This document shows, in pieces, positions 16,755 through 36,758 of a DNA stretch of 64,000 nt. The notes under the pieces were generated by a model. That model searched no databases. It saw only the letters and a program-made list of their open reading frames with translations, and was not told where the DNA came from. Position 1 is the first letter of the stretch, and every line of letters begins with the position of its first letter. The position numbers and the translations under genes were made by a program. The DNA comes from Gammaproteobacteria bacterium (GTDB lineage Bacteria > Pseudomonadota > Gammaproteobacteria > SZUA-152): positions 1-64,000 of the forward strand of contig JAOUJW010000028.1 in assembly GCA_029882975.1 (NCBI GenBank), given 5' to 3'.

Positions 16755-17939
16755 TCAGGGATTCTTAAGCCATTTAGCGGGATTGACAGGTTTTCCTTTA
16801 TGTCTAAGTTCAAAATACAGACCGCTGCTTTGTTGTCCACCGCTGGAGCCCACCGAGGCTATGACCTCACTGGGTTGTACCCAGGTGCCGGTGTCCTTGT
16901 ACAGGCTTTCGTTGTGACCATATAAGCTCATGTAACCGTTGCCGTGGTCCAAAATGACCAGCAGGCCAAAACCTCTCAACCAATCCGAGTACGCAATGCG
17001 CCCCGCAGCGATCGCTCTAACCGCTTGGCCGGACTTGGAGCCAATTAATACGCCTTGCCACTTTAGGTCGCCAATATGGCGAGAGCTGCCAAATCGCGCC
17101 TTTAGATTGCCTATAGTGGGCCACGGTAACTGTCCTTTTAGCTGGTCAAAGGGACGTTGTTGTAGATCCGGTGGTTGGATTCGAATGGTTTGGACCAGAT
17201 TTAGCAGCTCTTGCTCGTTTTGCAATAGCTTTTCAAGATCCAGTTTTTTTTCATCGAACTCTTTCCGGTATGCCAATAACGATTGGGCCCGCTGTACATG
17301 CAGCTGGCCTATGTGTTGTTTCTCTTTGAGCCGTTCCTCTTGCAGAGCCTGGAGCTGCTGGTTTTTATCGACAATAGCGTTACGAGTTTGGCGTAAGGAG
17401 CTTATATCATTTTGCCAGCGTTGAATTTGTTCCAGTCTGGCGCGATTGTAATAATCATAATAACGCAAGGCGCGCGATACTTTCTGTGGGTTTTGCTGAT
17501 TCAACAGCAATTTGATGTAAGGTTGCCGACCCAGGCGATAACTGGTGCGCACGTGTCGGGCGATGGCCTGGGTATGGTTGCTGAGGCTGTGTTGCAGGGT
17601 TTGCTGGGTGTGGTTCAGTTGTTTCAGTCGGCCTTGTTGTTGATCCAGTTGCTGTTGCAGCTCCTGCAACAGGCGGTTGACCTTGCTGATGCCCAGTTCG
17701 GTGTAGCGTAATTGTTTTTCCGCGCGAATCTTATGCTGCTTACTTTGTTCCAAAGACCGGCGAATCTGTCCAATTTCGCGGCGTAGCGTCTCGAGTTTTG
17801 CATCAGATTCCTGTACGGATGGCGTGTCGAGTTTCGACTCCGGTGATGCGCCGGCATTGTTTGCTAACAGACCCACGGCCAGCATAAGGCTAACCACGGT
17901 GGGAGGGGTTCTAACCAATTTTCCGATCGTTACTGGCAT
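16755..17939 (-). CDS. envC: EnvC-like murein hydrolase activator, LytM/M23 domain
   Basis: Periplasmic activator of amidases at the division site. Signal peptide at about residues 12-32, long coiled coils (about 45-125 and 155-235) rich in Gln and Leu, then a LytM domain beginning [19 protein letters not shown] and ending in [14 protein letters not shown] and [17 protein letters not shown]. The first zinc ligand His of true M23 enzymes (HxGxD) reads LKWQG here, so it is a degenerate, non-hydrolytic LytM domain, as in EnvC. Start is uncertain: ATG 17939 gives 394 residues, while ATG 17969 would add ten and overlap gpmI by 59 bp. Confidence 0.9.
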
Positions 17940-19515
17940 CCTCAACAGGATGTAACTTAGGCGTTCCATCTCTTGCCAGGGTGATCAGGGAATCTCCACC
18001 CATCTCCGGTGGTTTGTCCAAACCCATGAGGTACAGCAGGCTGGGCGCCACATCAGACAATGCGCCACTTTGGACCAGCGTGGCCGGTCGACCCACATAA
18101 ATCAAAGGTACCGGGTTGCTGGTATGCGCCGTGTGCGATTGACCGGTTTGTTTGTCGCGCATTTGTTCCGCATTGCCGTGGTCTGCGGTGATAATCGCTT
18201 CACCCCCCACTTGTTCCAAGGCAGTTATCACTTTAGCCAGGCAGGCGTCCAAGGCTTCAATGGCTTTTACTGTCGCTTCGTAGTTGCCGGTGTGACCCAC
18301 CATATCGGGATTGGCATAGTTACAAATGATGGTGTCGTATTTGTCGCTCTTAATAGCTTCTATGAGTTTCTCGGTAAGTGCCGGGGCGCTCATTTCCGGT
18401 TGCAAGTCGTAGGTCGCTACATCAGGGGAGTTTATCAAAATACGATCTTCGCCTTCGGAAGCCGTTTCGGTGCCGCCGTTAAAAAAGAAGGTGACGTGAG
18501 CATATTTCTCCGTTTCCGCGATGCGCAATTGGCGTAATCCCAAAGAAGCAATATATTCGCCGAACACATTTTGCAGACGATCCGGTGGAAAGGCCACGGG
18601 GACGTCGAACTCCGAGCTGTATTCCGTGAGGCTGATAAAATCACCCAGGCTCGGTGTGCTGACGCGATCGAACTCAGCAAAATCGGTCTCTATGAATGGG
18701 CGAGTGATTTGGCGAGCGCGGTCGGAGCGATAATTCATGGAAATGACCACGTCACCGTCGTTGATGCACACCGGTTTGCCGTTAGTATCGATAATGCGGG
18801 TGGGTTTGACAAATTCGTCGGTCTCGCCCCGAGCATAGGCCATTTCCAATGCTTCGAGAGGGTTTTTTGCTTCATACTCGGCTGTGCCGGAGGTGAGCAA
18901 ATCGTAAGCGGCTTTGACGCGGGGCCAGCGGTGGTCCCGGTCCATGGCGTAATATCTGCCAACTATGGACGCTATGCGGGCCGAAGGGGTCTCCTGGAAA
19001 CACTGCATCATTTCTTCCAGAAATTTTGTCGCACTTTTTGGCGGGGTATCGCGACCGTCCAAAAAGGCATGTAAATAAATGGTTTTGGCTCCCCGTTGGT
19101 GAGCCAGTTGGACCATAGCTTGAATGTGTTCCTGGTGGCTGTGTACCCCACCATCTGATAACAGCCCAATAATATGTACCGCCTTGCCATTTTCTTTTGC
19201 CAAATCAACTGCATCGGTAAGAGTTTGGTTTTTAAAAAAGGAGCCGGTTCGAATGGCACGACTGACTCGGGTAAATTCCTGGTACACCACACGTCCGGCC
19301 CCCAGATTCAGGTGCCCTACTTCCGAATTGCCCATTTGTCCGGTGGGCAAGCCGACGTCAGCGCCGGAACCCTTGATCAGGGCGTGGGGGTGTTGTTTCC
19401 ACAAACGGTCCCAGGTAGGTTTCTTGGCATGATAAATGGCGTTGTTCTCAGGATTTTCGCTGTATCCCCACCCATCGAGAACGATGAGTACGACTGGCTT
19501 GTGATCAATGGGCAT
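17911..19515 (-). CDS. gpmI: 2,3-bisphosphoglycerate-independent phosphoglycerate mutase
   Basis: Mn2+-dependent glycolytic/gluconeogenic mutase interconverting 3- and 2-phosphoglycerate. 534 residues, slightly above the usual 510-515. Visible: VLDGWGYSE at the N-terminus (first metal Asp), the phosphoserine in [40 protein letters not shown] and the second metal site [11 protein letters not shown] and [14 protein letters not shown]. It begins the leftward operon, and its 3' end overlaps envC, giving the conserved gpmI-envC pair. Confidence 0.97.
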
Positions 19516-19706
19516 AAAACTCTTTAACTGGTTGCAAGCGTGGTTAAACTGCTAATTTTAATAAACTCGGGTCTCGAAAACAAAGGTTATTATACATAAA
19601 GGTAACAGAGTTGTTTTGGGTAATCTCTGAGCTTTCGGTAGAAAATGGGATTAAATCGAGGTAAATCAAGGTTTCGTTTTATTTAAAAAGTGTAATAATT
19701 AGTAAT

Positions 19707-19723
19707 ATTAGTAATTACCTAAT
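19707..19723. promoter_or_regulatory. candidate operator, ATTAG dyad
   Basis: Perfect inverted repeat ATTAG-N7-CTAAT centred 120 bp upstream of the ArsR gene; the spacer TAATTAC makes an inner palindrome GTAATTAC. The AT-rich two-fold site fits what winged-helix ArsR repressors bind, but this is a sequence guess. Confidence 0.3.
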
Positions 19724-19755
19724 GAATTATATTGTTTTATAGTTTATTTCTTGTA

Positions 19756-19773
19756 ATGATTGTTAATTATCAT
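19756..19773. promoter_or_regulatory. candidate operator, ATGAT dyad
   Basis: Perfect arms ATGAT and ATCAT around 8 bp, extendable outward to TGT/ACA with one extra base. It ends about 60 bp before the ArsR start and may overlap its promoter, which would suit autorepression. Confidence 0.3.
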
Positions 19774-19835: not shown

Positions 19836-20156
19836 ATGGTGGTAAATATGCATGAAGAAGCGTTAATAACACGGGATGAAGATATTGAGAGAGCATCCCG
19901 CTCGATCAAGGCTATGTCCCATCCATTACGATTAAAAATACTCTGTGCCCTGGGTGATCAGGAAGTGAGCGTACAGGATATCGTTTCCATGGTGGGGACC
20001 TCCCAAAGTAACATTTCGCAGCACTTGGCTATTTTGCGAGATAAAGGTATTCTTGCCTCGCGCAAGGACGCAAATCGGGTATACTATCGGGTTGGAGACT
20101 CACGTACTTTGCGTTTGATCGGGATGATGCGGGAAGTGTTTTGTAGCACGACTTAA
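19836..20156 (+). CDS. ArsR family regulator, candidate persulfide sensor of the BigR/SqrR type
   Basis: Winged-helix repressor of 106 residues. Helices run from about residue 15, with SHPLRLKILCAL, then the recognition region TSQSNISQHLAILRDKGIL and wing KDANRVYYRV. The metal-site ELCVC motif of ArsR is absent (EVSVQDI here). Instead there are only two cysteines, C37 and C103, 66 residues apart. That is the same spacing and context as the reactive pair of SqrR (C41/C107) and BigR (C42/C108), which form a tetrasulfide bridge with persulfides (established for those proteins). ATG 19836 or 19848 may be the start. The downstream rhodanese-glutaredoxin operon supports a sulfane-sulfur role. Confidence 0.85.
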   Translation: MVVNMHEEALITRDEDIERASRSIKAMSHPLRLKILCALGDQEVSVQDIVSMVGTSQSNISQHLAILRDKGILASRKDANRVYYRVGDSRTLRLIGMMREVFCSTT

Positions 20157-20351: not shown

Positions 20352-20406
20352 GCAGAAATGAATAAGTGGGTAACTTTAGCGGGGTGCTCGTATTCATTTC
20401 CCTCTT

Positions 20407-20426
20407 TGTATGCTTAAAGGCATACA
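20407..20426. promoter_or_regulatory. candidate operator upstream of the rhodanese-glutaredoxin gene
   Basis: Perfect 7-bp inverted repeat TGTATGC-N6-GCATACA, ending 55 bp before the start codon. Its 20-bp span suits a dimeric winged-helix protein, so it is the most likely site of the neighbouring ArsR regulator. Apart from the dyads, the gap 20157-20481 contains no gene I can support. Confidence 0.4.
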
Positions 20427-20481: not shown

Positions 20482-21285
20482 ATGGAACAATTTGCAGAAT
20501 TTTTTGGGGAGAACTTGGTACTATTTGCCGCCTTGTTCGTCATATTGTTTTTTCTGATCCGTTCCTGGCTGCCGGGCAGTGTCATTGCCTTGCGGCCCAC
20601 AGAAGCTGTGCGCCTTGCCAATAGTAAAGATGCTGTTTATCTGGATGTGCGCACAGATGAGGAATATAGCGAAGGCCATATCCTGGATGCCCTGCACATA
20701 CCATTGGGCTTGTTGAGCGGGCGCATCAACGAAATCGATCAGTTAAAAACTACACCCATCATCATTTACTGCCGCAGCGGTGCGCGTTCAGCACAAGCCG
20801 GGTCTGTGTTGAAAAAGCAGGGTTTCACCGAGTTGTACCACATCGGTGGCGGTATTGCTGCCTGGCAGCAAGGTAACTTGCCGATTACAAAAAAAAACAA
20901 AAATAAAAGTCGCAAACTAAAACCGGTGAAAACCTCGGAACCGGTAAAAAATGCAGCTGTGGCCCAAAGCAATGAATCCGGAGTTTTGATGTACGTTACT
21001 CGGCGTTGTCCGTTTTGTTTGCAAGCGCAGCGTTTGCTGGATGACAAAGGTGTGGAGTATGCACAAATAGATTTGGATGTTGAGCCGGATAAGCGGGCGG
21101 AAATGGAACAACGTTCCGGTGGCAGAGATTCGGTGCCACAGATATTTATCGGTGCGCACCATGTGGGTGGATGTGACGATCTTTATGCATTGGACAAGCG
21201 CGGCGAATTGGACCCCCTCCTGGGACTGGTGCCGGTGGAAAAAAATTCCGTGATGGACGCCGAGGTAAAATCGCTGGTCCATTGA
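20482..21285 (+). CDS. membrane-anchored rhodanese-glutaredoxin fusion
   Basis: Fusion of 267 residues. An N-terminal membrane helix (about 11-29) leads into a rhodanese domain (about 36-132) with VYLDVRTDEEYSEGHI and the active-site loop YCRSGAR. A basic linker (KKNKNKSRKLKPVK) follows, then a glutaredoxin domain (about 170-253) with the CPFC dithiol and the SVPQIFI cis-Pro loop. The rhodanese Cys accepts sulfane sulfur and the attached glutaredoxin could reduce the persulfide. E. coli has separate yibN and grxC genes at this locus. The domain faces the cytoplasm if the helix is N-out, which is probable but unproven. Confidence 0.93.
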   Translation: MEQFAEFFGENLVLFAALFVILFFLIRSWLPGSVIALRPTEAVRLANSKDAVYLDVRTDEEYSEGHILDALHIPLGLLSGRINEIDQLKTTPIIIYCRSGARSAQAGSVLKKQGFTELYHIGGGIAAWQQGNLPITKKNKNKSRKLKPVKTSEPVKNAAVAQSNESGVLMYVTRRCPFCLQAQRLLDDKGVEYAQIDLDVEPDKRAEMEQRSGGRDSVPQIFIGAHHVGGCDDLYALDKRGELDPLLGLVPVEKNSVMDAEVKSLVH

Positions 21286-21313
21286 TGTCGGGAGGAGGCT
21301 ATTGGTTGAGGCT

Positions 21314-21577
21314 ATGACTACTGTGAAGGTCGAAATGTACAGTACACGCTTCTGCCCTTACTGTGTACGGGCCCGGCGCTTGTTAAAGGAAAAAGGTGTT
21401 GAATACACCGAATATCGGGTGGATCAAGATGTGGAGCTACGCCACGAAATGGAACAGCGTAGTCAACGCACCAGTGTACCGCAAATTTTTATCGAAGACC
21501 GGCACATTGGTGGGTATGATGATATGGCCCAGCTGGATATGAGCCAAGAGTTGGATCTCCTGCTGGGATTGGAATAA
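21314..21577 (+). CDS. grxC: glutaredoxin 3
   Basis: Small dithiol glutaredoxin of 87 residues with active site CPYC, the TSVPQIFI cis-proline motif and the GGYDD GSH-binding segment. ATG 21314 is preceded by GAGG at 5 nt; an in-frame TTG at 21302 is less likely. It is clearly related to the glutaredoxin half of the preceding fusion (both have EKGVEY/DKGVEY and EMEQRS), which suggests a duplication followed by fusion. Reduces disulfides using glutathione in the cytoplasm. Confidence 0.94.
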
Positions 21578-21599: not shown

Positions 21600-22025
21600 A
21601 TGGTGCACGTCGTGTGTCCCGCGTGTGATGCGGTCAATCGCTTACCTGAAGAGAAACTGGGTGCCGGAGGTAAATGCGGTGCCTGTCACCGGCCCTTGTT
21701 TACAGGGCAAGTTCTTGAGCTTAACAACGCTCGGTTTCAAAAGCATATACAAAAAAGCCAACTGCCCATTGTCGTGGATTTTTGGGCGTCCTGGTGCGGT
21801 CCCTGCAAAATGATGGCCCCGGTTTTTGCCCAATTGGCTCAGGAATTGGAACCACAGTTTCGTTTGGTGAAAGTCAATACGGAAACTGAGCAGGCGTTAG
21901 CAGCCCAATTTAATATCAGAAGTATTCCCAGCCTATTATTGTTTGAAAACGGGATAGAAAAAGCCCGCATTGCCGGAGCGATGGATAAGCAAAATTTACT
22001 GGCCTGGATACAGCAAAATCGCTAG
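21600..22025 (+). CDS. trxC: thioredoxin 2 with zinc-binding N-terminus
   Basis: Thioredoxin of 141 residues with an N-terminal zinc ribbon (CPAC and CGAC, about residues 6-30) and a thioredoxin domain with [14 protein letters not shown] and SIPSLLLF. This architecture is that of TrxC, which helps during oxidative stress. Start ATG 21600 follows a GGGGGGAAG ribosome site. Together with the fusion and grxC it makes a three-gene thiol-redox group before secB; trxC is not in this position in E. coli. Confidence 0.95.
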
Positions 22026-22068: not shown

Positions 22069-22563
22069 ATGACCGAATCCAATCAGGGCTCTGGGGAACA
22101 ATCACAAGAGCAACCATCACAGCAATTTGTGCTGCAAAAAGTGTATTTGAAAGACGTTTCATTTGAGACGCCTAATTCGCCCGAAATTTTCACTGAGAAA
22201 TGGGAGCCAACGGTTAATATTGAGCTGAAAACCAACGGCAAGGCTCTGGCCGCAGAGGTGCATGAAGTGGTGTTGGGCATCACTGTGACGGCAAAAGTGG
22301 GTGAAAAAGTCGCCTATTTAGTGGAGGTTCATCAAGCCGGTGTGTTTGGTGTCAGCGGTTTTTCCGAATCCGATATGGGGCCTTTGCTCGGTAGTTATTG
22401 TCCTAATTTACTGTTCCCTTTTGCCCGTGAAGCCATATCGGATTTGGTTACCAAGGGTGGTTTTCCGCAACTGCTGTTACAGCCTGTCAACTTTGATGCA
22501 ATTTACCAGGACCACATAAGGCAGGCAAATCAGGAACCCGTTCAAGAAAACCCCGTACACTAG
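22069..22563 (+). CDS. secB: protein-export chaperone SecB
   Basis: Tetrameric cytoplasmic chaperone that keeps precursors unfolded and hands them to SecA. The 164-residue sequence has the VLQKVYLKDVSFETPNSPEIF start region, the HQAGVFGVSGF segment and CPNLLFPFAREAISDLVTKGGFPQLLLQPVNFDAIY. The N-terminus is Gln/Ser-rich and acidic. Located between the redox genes and gpsA as in E. coli. Confidence 0.97.
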   Translation: MTESNQGSGEQSQEQPSQQFVLQKVYLKDVSFETPNSPEIFTEKWEPTVNIELKTNGKALAAEVHEVVLGITVTAKVGEKVAYLVEVHQAGVFGVSGFSESDMGPLLGSYCPNLLFPFAREAISDLVTKGGFPQLLLQPVNFDAIYQDHIRQANQEPVQENPVH

Positions 22564-22576
22564 CCGAGCGAATACG

Positions 22577-23590
22577 GTGAATACCCGCAAGGACAGCATT
22601 TCTGTATTTGGCGCCGGTTCCTGGGGTACCGCCTTGGCAGTGCTATTGTCCCGCAATGGGTCCCCGGTGACCTTATGGTGTCGCAATAGCACTCAAGCGC
22701 AAACCATGCAGCAGCAACGCAATAATGCCCGCTATCTGCCGGATACCCCCTTTCCTGAGTCACTCCGAATTACGGCTGACCTGGGCGAAGCGGTTCGTGT
22801 TTCTCAGGAATTACTGGTGGTGGTTCCCAGTCACTCCTTTCGCGCTGTGGTGCAGGATATTGCCGGCGCCATGCGTCAAGGCCAACGCCTGGCTTGGGCT
22901 ACCAAAGGATTTGAAAGCCATACCGGGTTGTTGCTTCACGATGTAGTGGCTGAAGTGGTCCACAAGAACTTGTGTACCGCTGTGGTGTCCGGACCCACCT
23001 TTGCGGTGGAGGTGGCCAAAGGCTTACCGACGGCAGTGACCGTGGCGTCTGAGTTTGATGAGTTTGCCTCTGATTTGGCCCAGCGGCTGCACGATGACAC
23101 CTTTCGAGCCTACACCAGTCAGGATATTATCGGCGTGGAGGTGGGTGGCTGCGTCAAAAATGTTTTGGCCATTGCAGCAGGGATTGCCGATGGTCTGGGT
23201 TTTGGCGCCAATACTCGCGCGGCCTTGATTACTCGCGGTTTGGTCGAAGTGATGCGCCTGGGCTTAGCCTTGGGAGGGCGACAGGAGACTTTTATGGGTC
23301 TGGCCGGGTTAGGTGATCTGGTGTTAACTTGTACCGACGATCTATCCCGTAACCGTCGCCTGGGTCTGGCCATGGGCCGCGGTGCTTCGCTGCAACAGGC
23401 GTTGGCTTCTATCGATCAGGTTGTGGAAGGAGTGCAAGCGGCAAAAGAGGTGCGCTCGGTAGCGCAACGAATGAGTGTGGAAATGCCCATAACGGAACAG
23501 GTTTATGATGTTTTGTATAATGCCAAATTGCCCCGTGACGCCGTGCACGATCTGCTGGCGCGGGAACAAAAATCTGAAACACTCATTTAG
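22577..23590 (+). CDS. gpsA: NAD(P)+-dependent glycerol-3-phosphate dehydrogenase
   Basis: Makes sn-glycerol-3-phosphate from dihydroxyacetone phosphate for phospholipids. The 337 residues include the N-terminal Rossmann motif VFGAGSWGTALA, the VSGPTFAVEVAKG segment, the catalytic Lys in EVGGCVKNVLAIAAG and GLAGLGDLVLTC. Start is GTG 22577, 13 bp after secB. The 3' end overlaps trmL by 4 bp in convergent orientation, so the two messages are complementary at their ends. Confidence 0.97.
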   Translation: MNTRKDSISVFGAGSWGTALAVLLSRNGSPVTLWCRNSTQAQTMQQQRNNARYLPDTPFPESLRITADLGEAVRVSQELLVVVPSHSFRAVVQDIAGAMRQGQRLAWATKGFESHTGLLLHDVVAEVVHKNLCTAVVSGPTFAVEVAKGLPTAVTVASEFDEFASDLAQRLHDDTFRAYTSQDIIGVEVGGCVKNVLAIAAGIADGLGFGANTRAALITRGLVEVMRLGLALGGRQETFMGLAGLGDLVLTCTDDLSRNRRLGLAMGRGASLQQALASIDQVVEGVQAAKEVRSVAQRMSVEMPITEQVYDVLYNAKLPRDAVHDLLAREQKSETLI

Positions 23591-35403: not shown

Positions 35404-35904
35404 CTATTTTTTAGATTTCAGGTATTTTTTCTCGTATTCAGCGCTCAGTTTTTTGGCTTTCTTCAGCTGGGCCGGGCTCATTTGTGTCGCCAAGTAATCT
35501 ATCCCCCACAAGGCGCTGCCCATTTTTTCGACGGCCAAAGCTGAAGCCGCCACACTATACCAGGCATAACTTTGCACAAAATCCCGTTTGGTGCCGGTGC
35601 CTTTGGCATACATTACCCCCAGATTGGCTTGAGCTGAAGTAACACCCTGGAGAGCGGCCTTTTGATACCAGTAAAATGCCTTTTCGTAGTTCTTTTTAAC
35701 GCCGGTTCCGGTGTGATACATAACAGCGATGGTGGATTGCACCTGCGGATCACCTTTTTCCGCTAATTTTTTCCATTCAGAATATGCGGTTTTAAAATCG
35801 TACTTTTTGAAGGCGGTCAATCCCTTGTCATAGTTGGCTACTATAGGGGAACTTATGACAAAACTTAGTAGTACTACGGTATAAATAACTACGGCTTTTT
35901 TCAT
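35404..35904 (-). CDS. exported Sel1-repeat protein
   Basis: 166 residues with a signal peptide (about 1-22, cleavage after IVAN region), then three Sel1/TPR-like repeats, for example AYSEWKKLAEKGDPQVQSTIAVMYHTGTGV, AFYWYQKAALQGVTSAQANLGVMYAKGTGT and SYAWYSVAAS. These helical repeats mediate protein contacts; partner unknown. ATG 35904 is preferred because it puts the signal peptide first. The upstream region has a structured leader-like element (see 36002-36071). Confidence 0.87.
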   Translation of the reverse strand: MKKAVVIYTVVLLSFVISSPIVANYDKGLTAFKKYDFKTAYSEWKKLAEKGDPQVQSTIAVMYHTGTGVKKNYEKAFYWYQKAALQGVTSAQANLGVMYAKGTGTKRDFVQSYAWYSVAASALAVEKMGSALWGIDYLATQMSPAQLKKAKKLSAEYEKKYLKSKK

Positions 35905-36001
35905 TCCTTGCCTCACGATTATTCTCTGGAAACAATGCATTGGGCAAAATATACCATAATCCTGGAGATTGGTGTGAATTCTGGACCCAAAACCAGGGGG
36001 C

Positions 36002-36035
36002 AAAAAAAAGGCCGTAACAGGGCGGCGTCACGGCC
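36002..36035 (-). terminator. orphan intrinsic terminator, minus strand
   Basis: Read leftward: stem GGCCGTGAC / GTTACGGCC (36035-36027 and 36018-36010; eight pairs plus one mismatch), an 8-nt loop, then eight Ts (36009-36002). No leftward gene ends here, and the next leftward gene (Sel1) starts about 100 bp further on. It is therefore either an attenuator in the Sel1 leader or the end of a small RNA. Confidence 0.7.
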
Positions 36036-36071: not shown

Positions 36072-36437
36072 TGCGGGGTACGATACAAGAACTTCTATGT
36101 CATTGGAAGTAATTTATATCGATATGTATATAATATTGTATTATATGTAACCAATAACCATGAGAAAATTGGCGGTTAGCAAATGGAGTAAAACTCCAGC
36201 CTGCGCCATAAAAAATTACGTACGTAGTGCATAAGTAGTTTAGTGCGGGGCAAATAATAGGAATTAAAGCTTTTGTGCTGTTTACCGTTACCCGTATAGG
36301 ACGCAAAACCACCCGTTTAGTTCCCGGATTTGGGTCCGCGCAATTTGCGGTTGCTGTACAGAAAATTTGGTGTAACATCTGCAGCAAGCAGGAAGTCCGA
36401 ATTTTAACTTAATTACTGACACTTGGAAGTGAGCTTG
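36072..36437. other. intergenic region with a nested hairpin, no gene seen
   Basis: Between the Sel1 leader element and the twin-CX10C gene. It holds a nested hairpin at 36170-36208 (outer arms TGGCG/CGCCA; inner arms TGGAGT/ACTCCA around AAA). A TA-rich block at 36110-36150 could provide promoters for both strands. A leftward frame of 95 codons across it is not gene-like. Confidence 0.5.
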
Positions 36438-36758
36438 ATGATGAGAGTAAGCGCATGTTTCTTCATTGCTGTGTTTATGGTGGCTGCGCCGGCAAGCGCT
36501 GCAGATAGCGCCAATTCGCCGGAGTATGAAAAAAATCTTGAACAGTTAATGAAAGTGGAAAAACAAATTCGGGAAGAACAAACCAGTAACGAACAAAAAA
36601 AAGAACAGATTAAAAAAATGGAAAAAAAAGTGGATTGCAATTTTAATCTGTTAAACGCTTATAAAAGTTGCGATGAAAGTTTTAAAAAGGGCACCGATCC
36701 TTATTGGGCTTGCATAAAAGAGGCGAAAAAAGACTTCGAGCAGTGTACTTTTGAGTAA
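36438..36758 (+). CDS. periplasmic helical protein with twin CX10C motif
   Basis: 106 residues, not recognised. Signal peptide (about 1-21, ending ASA-A). The mature part is a Lys/Glu-rich coiled coil (about 35-68, with KKEQIKKMEKKV), followed by two CX10C motifs separated by 13 residues (CNFNLLNAYKSC and CIKEAKKDFEQC). Such spacing predicts a helical hairpin held by two disulfides, as in mitochondrial CHCH proteins. That likeness is structural and may be convergent. ATG 36438 or 36441 is the start, with GGAAGTGA nearby. Confidence 0.75.
   Translation: MMRVSACFFIAVFMVAAPASAADSANSPEYEKNLEQLMKVEKQIREEQTSNEQKKEQIKKMEKKVDCNFNLLNAYKSCDESFKKGTDPYWACIKEAKKDFEQCTFE

Follow-up and report, generated by a model that had tools for sequence, protein, structure and literature searches.

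A conserved ArsR-family regulator ahead of a rhodanese-secB cluster in Gammaproteobacteria is probably a sulfur sensor of a known type

In the window, a 64,000-nucleotide stretch of gammaproteobacterial DNA that was analyzed as a whole, a small ArsR-family regulator stands ahead of genes for a rhodanese, glutaredoxins and a thioredoxin, and the question that this locus raises is which signal the regulator senses and which genes it controls. To our knowledge, little has been learnt of how dsr-bearing gammaproteobacteria regulate sulfur oxidation. The window ArsR has a cysteine pair of the switch type, is followed by sulfur and thiol genes, and has relatives in nearly every sampled genome that carries dsrB, a gene of the Dsr sulfur-oxidation enzyme; it is thus probably a sulfur sensor of a known type, albeit an unstudied one.

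The window ArsR, which has a possible alternative start at Met5 (19848), belongs to the ArsR/SmtB superfamily according to its match to PF01022 (HTH_5; 50.6 bits, cut-off 22). As the original prediction had claimed, C37 (LKILCAL) and C103 (EVFCS) are its sole cysteines, 66 residues apart. This was also said to be the spacing of the SqrR and BigR pairs, and HMMER alignments bear this out: C37 and C103 coincide gap-free with the cysteine pairs of BigR (3pqj), SqrR (13ct/6o8k) and HlyU (3jth, 5znx), and align to that of YgaV (3cuo) with one inserted residue between the two. Homology and not chance thus accounts for the shared spacing of 66. The nearest PDB proteins by sequence are BigR (2.7e-16), YgaV (7.9e-16), HlyU (3.9e-15), SqrR (8e-15), and NolR (2e-14). 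An AlphaFold2 model (pLDDT 85.7, pTM 0.76), for which 29 window and locus sequences served as input, contains helices at residues 14-27, 30-39, 46-53, and 57-69, two strands, and a last helix at residues 89-102. C37 lies within α2 (30-39) and C103 directly past α5 (89-102), which is the α2/α5 cysteine pair of the ArsR proteins that sense reactive sulfur species (RSS) or persulfides (SSN cluster 4; PMC10509353). The solved folds closest to this model are HlyU (Z 14.7) and SqrR (Z 14.2), with CzrA close behind, so that the fold alone is undecisive. Among NCBIfam models, the best match is the generic "metalloregulator ArsR/SmtB" (84 bits, cut-off 55), and the score on the BigR equivalog NF040642 (73.1 bits) stays below its cut-off of 155. 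The metal motif that was said to be missing is indeed absent: the window ArsR has neither the CxC in α3 nor the His/Asp site in α5 of metal-sensing ArsR/SmtB proteins, and its only histidines are H6, H29, and H63.

The genes downstream of arsR are those that had been listed before, a rhodanese-glutaredoxin fusion, a glutaredoxin, and a TrxC with a zinc ribbon (Table 1). With secB and gpsA behind trxC, the locus is therefore an ordinary yibN-grxC-secB-gpsA region, and the window cluster minus arsR and trxC is the well-known cluster of that composition. In E. coli, yibN, grxC, secB, and gpsA form one operon (PMC12282094). At 80 named ortholog loci, which were picked by ArsR similarity and of which many come from Chromatiales and other sulfur-oxidising gammaproteobacteria and some lie on contigs that end early, the rhodanese gene is found downstream in 78, secB downstream in 73, the divergent gpmI in 46, trxC in 24, and a separate grx in 19. 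Neighbouring genes for a sulfurtransferase/rhodanese or for sulfur transport are a further mark of RSS/persulfide-sensing ArsR proteins (PMC10509353), and a rhodanese gene is present here in the window and in those 78 loci. Persulfide-sensing ArsR regulators that adjoin rhodanese genes are already known (PMC10509353, PMC12423496); the genomic context, although made up of the very genes that had been listed, is therefore less unusual than the original prediction held. The proposed name of a thiol-redox operon fits the window genome and some relatives, and is limited to these by the counts for the separate grx and trxC, which vary, whereas the rhodanese gene and secB are the constant partners.

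Across the 80 loci, the median identity to the window proteins is 86% for ArsR, 40% for the rhodanese, 54% for SecB, and 68% for GpmI; the regulator is thus far more constrained than the adjoining rhodanese and SecB. Relatives from other families of the class (L020, L023, L025-L030) have the same gene order as the window, with identities of 77-91% for ArsR, 65-73% for GpmI, 44-66% for SecB, and mostly 36-54% for the rhodanese. At four loci (L183, L184, L186, and L187, in genomes G388, G132, G089, and G211), C37 and C103 are present and no rhodanese gene or secB lies within 1.5 kb; at L186, arsR adjoins a gene that begins like the ctpA-like peptidase gene in the gpmI region of the window. In the window itself, arsR and the rhodanese gene are separated by 325 bp with one weak terminator-like site at 20379, so their co-transcription there is unsure, and no consensus promoter was found in this gap. 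Several relatives have 10-50 bp between the two genes, which suggests a single arsR-rhodanese transcript there.

Three dyads around arsR (at 19707 and 19756 upstream of the gene, and at 20407 downstream of it) had been put forward as binding sites. Four genera of the family conserve the first, at 19707, although two right-arm positions vary in two of the four, whereas those at 19756 and 20407 are absent even from a congeneric genome; with no conservation in the congener or family genomes checked, these two were rejected as operators. The conserved block around the first dyad is likely a candidate promoter and operator of arsR. From about 100 dereplicated ortholog upstream regions, that of the window among the training sequences, a class-wide 30-bp block was derived, T.TATTATTGTATaaTgttTTa.TaATAaa, which includes TATAAT and lies about 55-195 bp upstream of the conserved coding start. 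Within the family of the window, the 30-bp block is preceded by TAGTAATTAnCnAATG (one exception, G for A), kept in four genera, and in the window's own genome the family upstream block occurs within one mismatch at arsR only. The second-best match to the 30-bp motif in the window (36129-36158, 15.4 bits) is apparently intergenic, between ORFs 35404-36003(-) and 36423-36758(+), and is probably due to chance. The 14-mer ATTATTGTATAATG, with up to two mismatches, is present in 39/98 ortholog upstream regions versus 0/93 control stretches and no shuffled sequence; its exact form occurs in one copy per genome, at the arsR promoter, in 14/14 genomes searched. A conserved promoter block that is found once per genome in 14 genomes points to local autoregulation, and the motif is promoter and operator joined, the two being inseparable by motif. 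Matches to the 14-mer with one mismatch elsewhere in the 14 genomes mostly stand without the remainder of the block and share no common target; since the exact 14-mer is found only at arsR, a wider regulon is not claimed. Also rejected were a palindrome 3' of arsR in orthologs, which seems to consist mostly of the first part of the rhodanese gene itself, and in-frame stops in two orthologs as selenocysteine codons, which are only the normal terminal stop.

Table 1. Coordinates of arsR, its upstream elements and its neighbours in the window
Feature	Position	Strand	Evidence
gpmI, divergent, across the arsR promoter region	17911..19515	-	domain match
Conserved arsR upstream block: dyad ATTAG-N7-CTAAT (19707-19723), -10-like TATATT (19728-19733)	19705..19733	+	near-invariant, four genera of the family
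Best window match to the class-wide 30-bp ortholog upstream motif	19728..19757	+	21.7 bits
arsR-family regulator, 106 aa	19836..20156	+	ORF, C37 and C103, domain match
C37 codon	19944-19946	+	in arsR ORF
C103 codon	20142-20144	+	in arsR ORF
Membrane-anchored rhodanese fused to dithiol glutaredoxin (CPFC), YibN-like	20482..21285	+	domain match
Glutaredoxin 3 (CPYC), grxC-like	21302..21577	+	TIGR02181, 112 bits, cut-off 90
Thioredoxin 2, trxC-like, N-terminal zinc ribbon, WCGPC	21600..22025	+	NF008229, 158 bits, cut-off 125
secB	22069..22563	+	domain match
gpsA, cluster end	22577..23590	+	domain match

The distribution of the ortholog follows that of dsrB. In a class sample of 370 genomes, drawn evenly and with an ortholog threshold of E <= 1e-20, the ArsR ortholog is present in 188, dsrB in 126, and soxB in 165. 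The ortholog is found in 121/126 genomes with dsrB versus 67/244 without it, in 56/57 dsrB families when counted by family, and in 145/165 soxB genomes; in a phylum sample (n = 299), it is found in 29/36 dsrB genomes versus 3/263 without dsrB. In both samples, the link with dsrB may come partly from the shared ancestry of whole lineages, which inflates its statistical significance. The window's own genome contains both dsrB (C6) and soxB (C11). Because 67 ortholog-bearing genomes of the class sample lack dsrB, and 33 of the 188 have neither dsrB nor soxB, the robust direction is that dsrB implies ArsR. Among small genomes, the nearly complete ones of 1.0-1.1 Mb at L167-L172 keep the regulator and the rhodanese gene, and secB too in 4/6 loci; in some of them, the regulator is the only ArsR candidate.

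What the analysis itself shows is the fold of the window ArsR with its homology, the conserved pair C37 and C103, the conserved block upstream, the order of the genes, and the dsrB/soxB link. The reading that we favour, and hold to be rather likely, is that the window ArsR responds to sulfane sulfur and represses its own gene together with the rhodanese operon behind it. It would be a homodimeric, winged-helix protein of the ArsR type that senses sulfane sulfur (persulfides, polysulfides) via C37 and C103. In its reduced form, it would bind the AT-rich block at 19705-19757 and keep its own promoter off; upon a rise in persulfides, a polysulfide bridge would join C37 to C103 and DNA binding would be lost. 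The bridge is proposed because SqrR- and HlyU-type proteins work in this way, a mechanism that is established for them (PMC10509353; PMC12423496); an intraprotomer polysulfide bridge that forms with persulfides and abolishes DNA binding is a mark of RSS/persulfide-sensing ArsR proteins (PMC10509353), and all characterised regulators with this cysteine pair sense reactive sulfur species (PMC10509353; PMC12423496). arsR would then be expressed together with the genes for the rhodanese-glutaredoxin fusion, glutaredoxin, TrxC, and SecB, the downstream genes through transcription that reads past arsR or through another promoter within the gap before the rhodanese gene. The role of the rhodanese would be to accept sulfur or hand it on, and the glutaredoxin and TrxC would reduce persulfides. 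For this proposed autorepressor, we infer repression rather than activation, and likewise the inducer, the bridge, the transcription of the operon, and its induction.

The same genes could be induced by a thiol-disulfide (oxidative stress) sensor, in which a plain C37-C103 disulfide forms on peroxide, disulfide or NO stress and turns on glutaredoxin and thioredoxin. The two dithiol glutaredoxin domains and the TrxC of the window operon are classical disulfide reductases and would suit such a sensor, and RexT is an ArsR protein that controls a thioredoxin gene by peroxide (PMC8960804). However, the two proximal α3 cysteines of RexT are missing from the window ArsR, which has no cysteine in α3 (46-53), and HlyU, which has the same pair as the window ArsR, is reported to form a tetrasulfide bridge with persulfides only and does not react with H2O2 or GSSG (PMC10509353). 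Moreover, neither grx nor trxC is a constant partner of arsR, whereas the rhodanese gene is, and the dsrB link points to sulfur. Taken with these points, a disulfide sensor is unlikely.

For the sulfane-sulfur-responsive autorepressor, C37 and C103 would form the switch. The orthologous group of the window ArsR is distinct and very conserved, with 73-95% identity across gammaproteobacterial families. Among the gammaproteobacterial orthologs read (109 close and 21 more distant, selected independently of their cysteines), C37 is present in 130/130 and C103 in 129/130; both occur in 109/109 of the close orthologs, and the more distant ones of the class have C37 in 21/21 and C103 in 20/21. At the one locus that differs (L189, genome G336), C37 is present and a serine replaces C103, so that one site is lost, and the order gpmI-arsR-rhodanese-secB is the usual one. 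Beyond the class, the tree has one deep branch made up of 26 sequences that belong to other classes of the phylum and are 52-61% identical (26 loci in all, including L176, L178, L182, L185, and L193-L212). In 26/26 of them, position 37 is V, A or D, i.e., the α2 cysteine is absent, while C103 is retained and cysteines are found at positions 23 and 89. A rhodanese gene lies downstream in 23/26, in some cases with trxC, and dsrB is present in 26/29 deep-branch genomes examined. As the two new cysteines stand at fixed places in every deep-branch sequence, thiols seem to matter there still. The branch may be a new variant. It is conceivable, if tentative, that an ancestral regulator of sulfur-oxidising proteobacteria had its thiol switch rebuilt, so that the class uses C37-C103 whereas the deep branch senses sulfur (or a metal) at another site, C23/C89/C103, with scaffold and target unchanged. 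The deep branch, lacking the α2 cysteine, is a natural experiment on the thiols that such a sensor needs.

The deep branch bears in two ways on the reading that the signal is not sulfur, for example that the yibN-secB-gpsA cluster has its genes for the envelope and for protein export tied to growth and that the cysteines are inherited and not the main switch. It keeps the rhodanese gene in spite of having lost C37, the constant members of the cluster are the YibN-like rhodanese and SecB, and E. coli YibN is a YidC partner with an envelope phenotype according to a report cited in PMC12282094. Yet the deep branch also gained its two other fixed-place cysteines, within the class almost no sequence deviates at C37 or C103, unlike at other positions, and the ortholog is near-universal in dsrB genomes, all of which makes a non-sulfur signal quite improbable.

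The tree, for which the metal sensors SmtB, NmtR, and CzrA served as outgroup, also leans towards kinship with persulfide sensors. These separate at 100/99 from the ortholog group and SqrR/BigR/HlyU/YgaV, and the ortholog group forms its own clade (100/99) on the side of the latter, close to the characterised persulfide sensors; the alignment has <100 columns, so that the deeper branch order is tentative, and in an AU test union of the ortholog group with the metal sensors is not rejected (p = 0.34). The earlier proposal of kinship with persulfide and not metal sensors thus agrees with the aligned cysteines, the split in the tree, and the dsrB co-occurrence, and is tempered by the AU test and by the group forming a clade of its own next to SqrR, BigR, and YgaV. 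An ordinary ArsR/SmtB metal or metalloid sensor, to which the generic NCBIfam match and the AU test would point, is highly improbable given that the α3 CxC and the α5 His/Asp site are absent, that the only two cysteines are distant from each other, that SmtB, NmtR, and CzrA branch apart, and that the immediate neighbours include no metal transporter.

Among the papers searched, there was no description of the ortholog group, its yibN-secB position, its dsrB link or the branch with rearranged cysteines, and no paper joining ArsR, rhodanese, glutaredoxin, and secB; by title and abstract, none of those on ArsR, sulfane sulfur, and Allochromatium appeared to describe the window gene. The dsrB co-occurrence, the once-per-genome promoter block, and the deep branch with changed cysteines are new in this analysis. 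Its conservation, which far exceeds that of its neighbours, and its presence in almost all dsrB genomes sampled make the regulator a direct candidate for a shared sensor of sulfane sulfur. If the sulfane-sulfur reading is true, rhodanese, glutaredoxin, thioredoxin, and SecB join the target set of persulfide-sensing ArsR regulators.

Among the known regulators, SqrR of Rhodobacter capsulatus is close in fold (1.8 Å over 93 residues at the above Z score), with both cysteines aligned gap-free. In contrast to the window ArsR, to which it is about 33-37% identical, SqrR falls in a separate clade, has a third cysteine (C9), and targets sqr and photosynthesis genes. BigR (Xylella, Acinetobacter) is the best PDB match by sequence and has aligned cysteines, but the window ArsR falls far below the cut-off of the NCBIfam BigR model (73 of 155 bits). 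The BigR operon contains genes for sulfide oxidation and export. HlyU (Vibrio) has the closest solved fold and aligned cysteines; it is, however, an activator of haemolysin genes in another genomic context, with 34-37% identity to the window ArsR. YgaV (E. coli) shares 36-38% identity over most of the protein and has aligned cysteines, but with one extra residue between them, and its gene position and genomic context are other than those of the window arsR. SoxR and sHdrR of Hyphomicrobium denitrificans, which are sulfane-sulfur-responsive ArsR repressors, resemble the window ArsR by description in having the same cysteine pair and a role in sulfur-oxidising bacteria, and differ from it in that they regulate sox and shdr genes (PMC12423496).
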